DNA of 64,000 nt, taken from positions 136,203 to 200,202 of the forward strand of contig NZ_CP034852.1 in the NCBI RefSeq assembly GCF_005080825.1. Direction: 5' to 3'. The position numbers and the translations under genes are program-made. Shown in pieces: positions 34,084-39,746 of this stretch (the stretch's first letter is position 1; each line of letters opens with the position of its first letter). The notes beneath the pieces are model-generated. The model was not told the origin of the DNA. It was given only the letters and a program-made list of their open reading frames with translations, and did not search any database. This stretch comes from Buchnera aphidicola (Thelaxes californica). Lineage in GTDB: Bacteria; Pseudomonadota; Gammaproteobacteria; Enterobacterales; Enterobacteriaceae.

Positions 34084-34650
34084 TTATTTTTCATATACTT
34101 CAACGATAGCTGGACTTAAAATAACATCACCGAAAGAATATCCATTTTGTATTATTTTATTTATATATTGTGGTTGTCCTGAATCAATAAAATTTTTTTT
34201 TTGATTGATTTTATGTATTTTTTTATTAAATAGTTCGTTAACTTTTCCTTCTTGTTTTATTTTAAATTGAAAAAAAGTATTTAACATAGTTTTAAAAATT
34301 AATTTTATTCCTAAAATTGTATTTTGATTATATTTTTCAATATTTTTTTTATTTTTATAAAGATTTTTTAATTGATTAGCGATAGGAATAATTTTTTTCA
34401 TAAAAAGAATGAATTGTTCATCTTTTATATATTTTTTTTTTATTTCATTTTTTTTTATGATATTTTCAATTTCTGCTTGAGCACGTAACTTTATATTTTT
34501 TTTTTTTTTTTGTAATATTTTAATTTCTTCGTTTAATTCTAAAATTGTTTTTTCTAATGGTTCAAGATGTTTTTTTTTTATTAATGTCTCTTCATTTTTT
34601 TTGTTTACTTTTGAGTTGTTTGTTGTTACACAATCTTGTTTATTTTCCAT
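34084..34650 (-). CDS. grpE: Nucleotide exchange factor GrpE
   Basis: GrpE releases ADP from DnaK, completing the DnaK-DnaJ-GrpE cycle together with the dnaK operon at the left of the window. The product has 188 residues (E. coli about 197). The N-terminal coiled coil (about 30-80) is very Lys/Glu-rich and includes LRAQAEIENIIKK, matching the family's RxxAExEN pattern. The C-terminal beta domain ends IIQNGYSFGDVILSPAIVEVYEK. An A16 run at 34496-34511 (minus strand) encodes Lys residues in the coiled coil, the longest adenine run I noticed in a coding region here. A promoter is proposed upstream. Confidence 0.95.
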   Translation of the reverse strand: MENKQDCVTTNNSKVNKKNEETLIKKKHLEPLEKTILELNEEIKILQKKKKNIKLRAQAEIENIIKKNEIKKKYIKDEQFILFMKKIIPIANQLKNLYKNKKNIEKYNQNTILGIKLIFKTMLNTFFQFKIKQEGKVNELFNKKIHKINQKKNFIDSGQPQYINKIIQNGYSFGDVILSPAIVEVYEK

Positions 34651-37336: not shown

Positions 37337-37996
37337 ATGAGTTATGTTTTACCAAAATTAAAATATGCATATGATAGCTTCGAACCTTTTATTGATACAG
37401 AAACTATGATTATACATCATACAAAACATCATCAAACTTATATAGATAATACAAATATGATGATTAAAAAGATGAACTTATTACATAAAAATATAGATCA
37501 AATTATTATGCATTTGAGAGACATTAAAAATTCAAACAATTTAGATAATGATTATATTTTTTTAAAAAATAATATTGGTGGACATATTAATCATAGTATA
37601 TTTTGGAGTTTATTAAAAAGAGGTACTGTATTAAGGGGTCGTTTAAAAAATCAAATAGAACAAGATTTTAATTCTTTTGATAATTTTAAACAAATGTTTG
37701 AAAAAGTAGCAATAAGTCACTTTGGTTCAGGATGGGTATGGTTAGTAGAAAGAAAAAAAAAGTTATATATTGAAAGTACTATCAATCAAGATAATCCTTT
37801 AATAGATTCTCTAATCTCAAAAACATATGGATATCCTATTTTTGGTTTAGATATTTGGGAACATGCATATTATTTAAAATATAAAAATAGAAGAATGGAT
37901 TATATTCAGTCTTTTTGGCAAATATTAAATTGGGATGAAGTGATTTTTCGTTTTGAAAAATGTTTTTGTTCTTCACAAAATATCAATATATTTTAA
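37337..37996 (+). CDS. sodA: Superoxide dismutase [Mn]
   Basis: Dismutates superoxide in the cytosol. The product has 219 residues (E. coli 206), longer through small insertions and a C-terminal extension. The metal ligands are His in MIIHHTKHHQTY, His in GGHINHSIFW, and Asp and His in LDIWEHAYYLKY. TINQDNPL carries the Gln typical of the Mn type, and FGSGWVWLV is conserved. With ahpC and grxD it forms the visible oxidative-stress set. The pth gene starts 12 bp downstream, so the two are probably co-transcribed. Confidence 0.97.
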   Translation: MSYVLPKLKYAYDSFEPFIDTETMIIHHTKHHQTYIDNTNMMIKKMNLLHKNIDQIIMHLRDIKNSNNLDNDYIFLKNNIGGHINHSIFWSLLKRGTVLRGRLKNQIEQDFNSFDNFKQMFEKVAISHFGSGWVWLVERKKKLYIESTINQDNPLIDSLISKTYGYPIFGLDIWEHAYYLKYKNRRMDYIQSFWQILNWDEVIFRFEKCFCSSQNINIF

Positions 37997-38008
37997 AAGA
38001 GGTGTATT

Positions 38009-38574
38009 TTGAATTTAATAAAAATTATTATTGGATTAGGAAATCCAAATATTCAATATAAAGAAACTAGACATAACTTAGGTGCTTCATTAATTTATAC
38101 ATATGCACAACATAACAATGTGAACATGGTTGAAAAAAAAAATTTTTAGGATATATTGGTACAGTAAAAAAATTTAAAAATAATGCGTATATATTTACTC
38201 CAAATACATATATGAATAAAAGTGGAGATGCTTTATCAAATATATTACATTTTTTTAATATTTCTCTGGAAAACATTTTAATTGTACATGATGATTTAGA
38301 TCTTAAAATAGGACAATTAAAATTTAAATATTCTATAGGAAGTAGCGGACATAATGGTTTACGCAGCATAATTATTTCATTAAGAAAGTTTTTTTCTCAT
38401 GTTGATTTAAAATCTCTATTTTTTCATAGAATATGTATAGGTATTGGTCGTCCTAATTCTAGAAAAAATGTTAGTTCATTTGTACTTACTTGTCCCTCAA
38501 AATATGAAAAAGAAATATTATCGACATCGATACAGCAAGCAATGAAATTTATTGATACTTTTATTCAACAATAA
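38009..38574 (+). CDS. pth: Peptidyl-tRNA hydrolase, interrupted by poly(A) frameshift
   Basis: Pth recycles peptidyl-tRNA dropped from ribosomes and is essential in E. coli. Translation from TTG at 38009, after an AAGAGGTG ribosome-binding site, gives IIIGLGNPNIQY and ETRHNLGA with the catalytic His. It then stops at 38147 just after an A10 run (38133-38142). One added A restores the frame into KFLGYIG, then TPNTYMNKSG, VHDDLDLKIGQLKFK, GSSGHNGLRSII and RICIGIGRP, ending at 38574 with the usual length of about 188 residues. Apart from the run nothing is damaged, which suggests rescue by polymerase slippage, or a sequencing indel. The poor TTG start is also notable. Confidence 0.9.
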
Positions 38575-38663: not shown

Positions 38664-39746
38664 ATGGGATTTAAATGTGGTTTAATTGGTTTACCGAATG
38701 TTGGTAAATCCACTTTATTTAATATTTTAACACAATCTAATGTTCCATCAGAAAATTATCCATTTTGTACGATTGAACCTAATATTTCTATTGTTCCAGT
38801 GTTTGATCATCGATTAAAAACATTACAAAAAATTGTATTTTCTAAAAATGTTGTTCCGACAACAATGGAATTTGTAGATATTGCAGGTTTAGTAAAAAAC
38901 GCACATTCAGGAGAAGGATTAGGTAATCAATTTTTACAAAATATTAGAAATGTAGATGCTTTAGTTCATGTCGTTCGATGTTTTTTGGAAAAAAATATTG
39001 TGCATTGTTATGATCAAATTAATCCTATTCAAGATATAGAATTAATTTTACTAGAATTAATTTTTGCTGATATTTACTTTTGTGAATTAGAATTAAAAAG
39101 CTTTGAAAAACAAATTAAAAAAAAAAATAGTGAGTTAATTAAACAGAAAATTACGTTATTATCTAAATGTTTAACTCATTTAAAAAAACAAAAAATGTTA
39201 AAGTCGTTAATATTAAATGATATAGAAGAAATAATAATTTCTTCTTTTAATTTTATTACTAAAAAACCAATAATGTATATTGCAAATATTAGTAAAATTA
39301 AAAGTAATACTCCTAATTTAGATTTATTTAATAATTTTTGTAAAAAAAATAACACAGAAATTATTCAATTATGCATTGAATATGAAAAACAAAAAATTTT
39401 ATGTGATAATAAAATTAAAAAAAATTGGAAAAATAATAATAATTCTGTAATACAAAAAATTATTCTTTCTGGTTATAAATTATTAAATTTAAATACTTTT
39501 TTTACTGTAGGTAAAAAAGAAATTAAAGCTTGGACATTAAAACATGGTGATAATATTACTGAAGCTGCAGGAAAAATTCATAGTGATATGAAACGAGGTT
39601 TTATTAGAGCACAAGTAATGTCATATGAAGATTTTATAAAATATAACGGAGAGATAGGAGTTAAAAAAATAGGAAAATATAGAACGGAAGGAAAAAAATA
39701 TATTGTACAAGATGGTGATATTATTAATATTTTATTTAATGTATGA
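38664..39746 (+). CDS. ychF: Redox-regulated ATPase YchF (Obg family)
   Basis: Ribosome-associated P-loop ATPase of the Obg family. The start ATG at 38664 gives MGFKCGLIGLPNVGKSTLF, identical in layout to E. coli (363 residues); an upstream in-frame ATG would add unconserved residues. The product has 360 residues. Motifs: Walker A GLPNVGKST, Walker B region FVDIAGLV, GEGLGNQFL, and the C-terminal TGS domain with FTVGKKEIKAW and GAKIHSDMKRGFIRA-like sequence (here AAGKIHSDMKRGFIRA). In many enterobacteria it is paired with pth, as here (89 bp apart). Confidence 0.97.
   Translation: MGFKCGLIGLPNVGKSTLFNILTQSNVPSENYPFCTIEPNISIVPVFDHRLKTLQKIVFSKNVVPTTMEFVDIAGLVKNAHSGEGLGNQFLQNIRNVDALVHVVRCFLEKNIVHCYDQINPIQDIELILLELIFADIYFCELELKSFEKQIKKKNSELIKQKITLLSKCLTHLKKQKMLKSLILNDIEEIIISSFNFITKKPIMYIANISKIKSNTPNLDLFNNFCKKNNTEIIQLCIEYEKQKILCDNKIKKNWKNNNNSVIQKIILSGYKLLNLNTFFTVGKKEIKAWTLKHGDNITEAAGKIHSDMKRGFIRAQVMSYEDFIKYNGEIGVKKIGKYRTEGKKYIVQDGDIINILFNV

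Follow-up and report, generated by a model that had tools for sequence, protein, structure and literature searches.

The 64-kb stretch of the Thelaxes californica Buchnera genome analysed here (the window, from genome G000) carries pth, which encodes peptidyl-tRNA hydrolase (Pth), an enzyme that recycles stuck tRNAs, on the forward strand, where it is flanked upstream by sodA (superoxide dismutase, 37337–37996, forward strand, from the ORF list), a neighbour that is syntenic in most of the Buchnera sampled, and downstream by an intact ychF (38664–39746, forward strand). The gap between the sodA stop and the TTG start codon of pth (38009–38011) is about 12 bases and holds a Shine-Dalgarno-like GAGG (AGAGGTG, 37999–38003, forward strand), which, like the run described next, was read from the sequence. 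The 5′ part of pth (38009–38149, forward strand) is open from this TTG to a zero-frame TAG at 38147–38149, while the 3′ part (38134–38574, forward strand) continues in the −1 frame for 146 codons up to a TAA at 38572–38574, and the frameshift site that joins them is a run of ten adenines (A10, 38133–38142, forward strand). At the run, the zero frame reads GAA AAA AAA AAT TTT TAG, and the −1 frame from 38134 reads AAA AAA AAA TTT TTA GGA. A preliminary description of this DNA had placed the zero-frame stop at 38147, directly after the A10; the position is correct, whereas the adjacency is not, as four T’s intervene.

Apart from this single frame error, both halves of the gene are intact, as had been proposed. 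Pfam PF01195 matches them separately, at profile positions 1–45 for the 5′ part (E 3.8e-9) and 38–175 for the 3′ part (E 1e-33), with scores of 114.9 and 35.2 bits for the halves, both above the curated cut-off of 27, and the joined product aligns along its full length with solved Pth structures (2pth, E 1e-31; 4dhw, E 3e-33). Over 38134–38571 the −1 frame contains no stop codon, against counts of 13 and 17 for the two alternative frames, and it keeps the conserved Pth blocks through to 38574, in agreement with the preliminary description; the GLGNP, TRHN, TYMN, HDDLD, GHNGL and GIGRP blocks are all present in the joined protein. Alignments further show that the active-site blocks are retained, namely the Asn of GLGNP, the His of TRHN, the Asn of TYMN, the Asp of HDDLD and the His-Asn of GHNG, whose catalytic roles we take to be those in E. 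coli Pth. Adding one A to the run gives a product without any gap at the junction relative to most intact Pth proteins, and thus an enzyme of normal length as previously claimed, while removing two bases instead gives a protein one residue shorter. The split pth has one of the features by which a poly(A)-slippage gene is recognized, a single frame error in a run of at least about nine A/T with the remainder of the gene intact.

The break is real and is not confined to one genome: the codon at which pth is split and the frame offset are shared by all three sampled genomes of the GTDB genus, which are that of the window (522,699 bases), G001 (529,515 bases) and G002 (509,028 bases), the last a putative Kurisakia onigurumii symbiont. 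We take both Thelaxes californica and Kurisakia onigurumii to be Thelaxinae. The run at the site is A10 in the window and in G001 (L033) and A9G in G002 (L034). A split pth recurs at or beside the same lysine stretch in three further symbiont lineages, namely G020 (L035, A10; genome of 559,180 bases), G017 (L036, A10 at the same motif, with an intact gene in its congener G201) and G104 (L178, A11, a few bases upstream of the Thelaxinae site; 459,102 bases), of which G017 (980-kb genome) and G104 (459 kb) are more distant symbionts. All four broken lineages need one more base to regain frame, a number too small for a test of direction (n = 4). Elsewhere the gene is whole: pth is intact in 36/36 genomes of the GTDB genus that holds the symbionts of Acyrthosiphon, Aphis and other Aphidinae, in 11/11 of the Baizongia genus, and in 4/4 and 3/3 of two other Buchnera genera, and 385 of the 392 sampled members of the family match pth. 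Of 83 distinct copies of the pth site, the six that are split have between 9 and 11 A in the run, and the 63 copies with at most eight A are all unsplit; since runs of at least nine also promote indels in DNA, this association is not independent support for slippage. A single open frame over an A13 at the same site was observed in the pth of G227 (L272), the putative Anoecia oenotherae symbiont; from the KFxG motif of this copy, two conserved residues are missing.

A tree built from ychF, thrC, thrB and sodA groups the genomes of the window, G001 and G002 with 100% support and joins G020 to the intact G204 (putative Taiwanaphis symbiont) with 79%, its deeper nodes being weakly supported. The simplest reading of this history is that one A was lost in the ancestor of the Thelaxinae symbionts, with the out-of-frame state retained since, and that a separate loss took place in G020. 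During this time the gene has remained constrained at the protein level. With the tree fixed, pth branch lengths relative to those of the neighbouring genes were 2.59 in Thelaxinae and 1.53 for the branch of G020, compared with 2.27 elsewhere, so that pth shows no marked acceleration. The downstream half of pth was compared in its −1 frame: in every pair of genomes, codon position 2 was the least changed and position 3 the most changed (p from 0.03 to 1e-4), and this half is free of stops and conserved, at about 46–51% protein identity, in all three members of the genus. The protein sequence downstream of the break is thus under constraint, and the frame break is shared between species while purifying selection on pth continues.

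Since pth has no sign of decay and its break is conserved, restoration of the frame during expression is likely. Our preferred reading is that the Thelaxes Buchnera pth is probably expressed and functional, with DNA that is one A short and a frame restored by slippage at the level of the transcript. RNA polymerase would slip backward on the A10 and add one A in a fraction of the transcripts; these A11 transcripts would be translated into Pth of normal length, and most pth transcripts would yield a short N-terminal peptide. Judged by analogy, the likeliest and best supported route of restoration is for RNA polymerase to insert one A. Of 157 transcription insertions measured in the LSR1 Buchnera, 151 fell in homopolymers, where they rose exponentially with run length (PMC5574713), and they were mostly single A/T, while deletions fell less often in homopolymers (PMC5574713); insertion is the direction in which pth, one A short, must be corrected. 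In favour of rescue by slippage, for poly(A) frameshifts of other endosymbionts 12–50% of the transcripts were reported as corrected (PMC5009743). Counting against it, no error that restored a frame was seen in the LSR1 data of the former study (PMC5574713). The preliminary description had proposed functional Pth from A11 transcripts; functional Pth by frame correction is well supported by the break in 3/3 genus members and by selection that shows no sign of being relaxed, whereas the transcript route stands only as the likeliest.

The closest known systems are the Buchnera and Blochmannia genes in which transcriptional slippage rescues a poly(A)-tract frameshift (Tamas et al. 2008, PNAS 105:14934), as they are described in PMC3017870, PMC3164680 and PMC5009743. 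As far as these accounts go, pth resembles those genes in having a one-base error in a long A run, an otherwise intact reading frame, a host genome of an AT-rich insect endosymbiont and a break shared between species; it differs in gene and lineage, being a core translation gene that is frameshifted in all the sampled Thelaxinae. The pth of Blochmannia vafer is the same gene with the same class of lesion and the same proposed correction, and no rate acceleration was reported for it (PMC3017870). Its site apparently differs from ours, however: in G476, the putative B. vafer genome, the long run (A11) is close to the C-terminus of pth and not at the KKKF motif, and B. vafer was therefore rejected as a further case of the Thelaxes break. 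Two genomes of the Blochmannia genus, G476 (L326) and G171 (L314), have an A11 near the C-terminal end of pth, at another site than that of Thelaxes. A promoter-like match that overlaps the run in the window (38130–38157, 10 of 12 positions) was rejected, as such matches occur at chance level (21 found versus 18.9 expected in the region) and G001 lacks the second of the two hexamers.

The same protein could be made by the ribosome, if it slipped −1 on A AAA AAA (tandem Lys tRNA) of an A10 mRNA, a route that seems unlikely but whose product would be identical to that of an A11 transcript. The A AAA AAA at 38134–38140 is an in-phase slippery heptamer of the X XXY YYZ type, and it is in phase in Thelaxes, in G001, in the putative Kurisakia genome G002 and in G020; such phasing is, however, automatic wherever a long A run carries a −1 offset. 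Folding of the downstream RNA gave z-scores of −2.31 in G001 and −2.08 in G002, but Thelaxes (z 0.64) and G020 (z 1.71) lack a structure there, and the consensus fold of three of the sequences is weak (−3.7 kcal/mol). By eye, no Shine-Dalgarno-like stimulator is visible upstream of the run; neither a conserved stimulatory RNA structure (by folding z-scores in four genomes and the consensus of three) nor an upstream Shine-Dalgarno element was found. A-rich sites can shift ribosomes without a stimulator. The programmed −1 site of E. coli dnaX (A AAA AAG) is likewise an A-rich, tandem-lysine slippery heptamer in phase; unlike in dnaX, neither a conserved stem-loop nor a stimulatory Shine-Dalgarno sequence upstream was found in pth, whose frameshifted product would be the full-length enzyme. 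Since the junction peptide is identical for both routes, proteomics cannot separate slippage from a ribosomal shift, while cDNA can.

That pth is instead a pseudogene on its way to loss, from which no functional enzyme is made, has precedent within Buchnera. The five genomes of the GTDB genus g91 (G100, G225, G302, G369 and G424; about 420–440 kb) lack pth in a profile search even at E 1 (ESSENTIALITY) and lack PTH2 as well; three of them are putative symbionts of Sarucallis, Therioaphis and Shivaphis (Calaphidinae), and pth is listed as lost in Calaphidinae and Phyllaphidinae (PMC11188193 Table 2), in agreement with its absence from this clade. Moreover, homopolymer frameshifts are counted separately in PMC3164680, as a common inactivating change in Buchnera. 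Nevertheless, we regard decay of the Thelaxes gene as quite improbable, as an unconstrained frame at such AT content would soon gain stops (compare the 13 and 17 stops of the two alternative frames), whereas the downstream half is stop-free and conserved, shows no marked acceleration and retains the catalytic blocks. The absence of pth in g91 implies that some Buchnera can do without Pth, and the description of pth as essential, which is correct for E. coli, does not extend to these five Calaphidinae-clade genomes. The case for function of the Thelaxes pth accordingly rests on constraint and not on essentiality in E. coli. PTH2 as a back-up was found in none of the 10 genomes tested, and plasmid searches gave no Buchnera match among the matches listed.

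We also considered that the frameshift could be kept as a feedback switch, in which scarce Pth leads to more −1 shifting and hence to more full-length Pth, and we find this very doubtful. Scarcity of Pth would trap Lys (and Phe) tRNAs as peptidyl-tRNA and leave the tandem AAA codons hungry, a logic comparable to that of release factor 2. Inactivation of Pth in E. coli does rapidly deplete Lys and Phe aminoacyl-tRNA (PMC10192219), and what bears on the idea here is that the break hits the same lysine run, at an identical offset, in Thelaxinae, G020 and G017, and lies a few bases upstream in G104. For frameshifting at hungry codons, no trans-frame protein with a starvation-specific function is known (PMC5009743). 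A two-piece enzyme, with the downstream half of pth translated separately from an internal start, is highly improbable: the downstream frame does offer an ATG at 38212, but a start there would fall after the junction and leave out conserved sequence ahead of TYMN, the codon is not conserved, being ATT in both G001 and G020, and it has no evident ribosome site.

We surveyed reading frames around pth by comparing the proteins of two other Buchnera against the 64-kb window and 76 kb from each of G001, G002 and G020, a scope that comprises the window and its syntenic stretches and a scan that may miss fast-evolving or short genes. The only gene found frame-split in each of the four surveyed regions was pth. 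The regions of the window, G001, G002 and G020 hold 49, 39, 72 and 33 coding A/T runs of at least nine, respectively, and for pth to be the sole broken frame despite the 49 such runs in the window is more than chance. Indel errors of assembly or sequencing usually fall in homopolymers, but a true genome that is in frame at this site has a negligible probability, as the other two genus members are in the same state, the putative Kurisakia genome G002 comes from a separate study with Illumina short reads corrected by Pilon, and no other coding run was found broken in the surveyed regions.

Rescue of poly(A) frameshifts by slippage is already known in endosymbionts, including cases shared between species and the pth of Blochmannia vafer (PMC3017870), and our literature search found no report of the Thelaxinae pth frameshift. 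What is new is that the break is present in all sampled genomes of the lineage, that it is the sole break seen in the regions compared and that it recurs at the same lysine stretch. In one lineage of aphid symbionts a core translation gene has apparently relied on reading errors ever since the common ancestor, and another Buchnera lineage has lost pth. Intact, frameshifted but constrained, and lost copies together form a natural series in which to ask when function persists in a “broken” gene, and they call for caution, since automatic annotation may score such frameshifted genes as lost. Within the window, two further genes hold long homopolymers. In ychF an in-frame A11 (39117–39127) is present, yet the gene stays in frame. 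A run of 16 T on the forward strand (A16 in the sense of the gene, 34496–34511) lies in a minus-strand gene (34084–34650) that looks like grpE and whose frame is intact; if slippage follows run length, the transcripts of this grpE-like gene should vary greatly in length.
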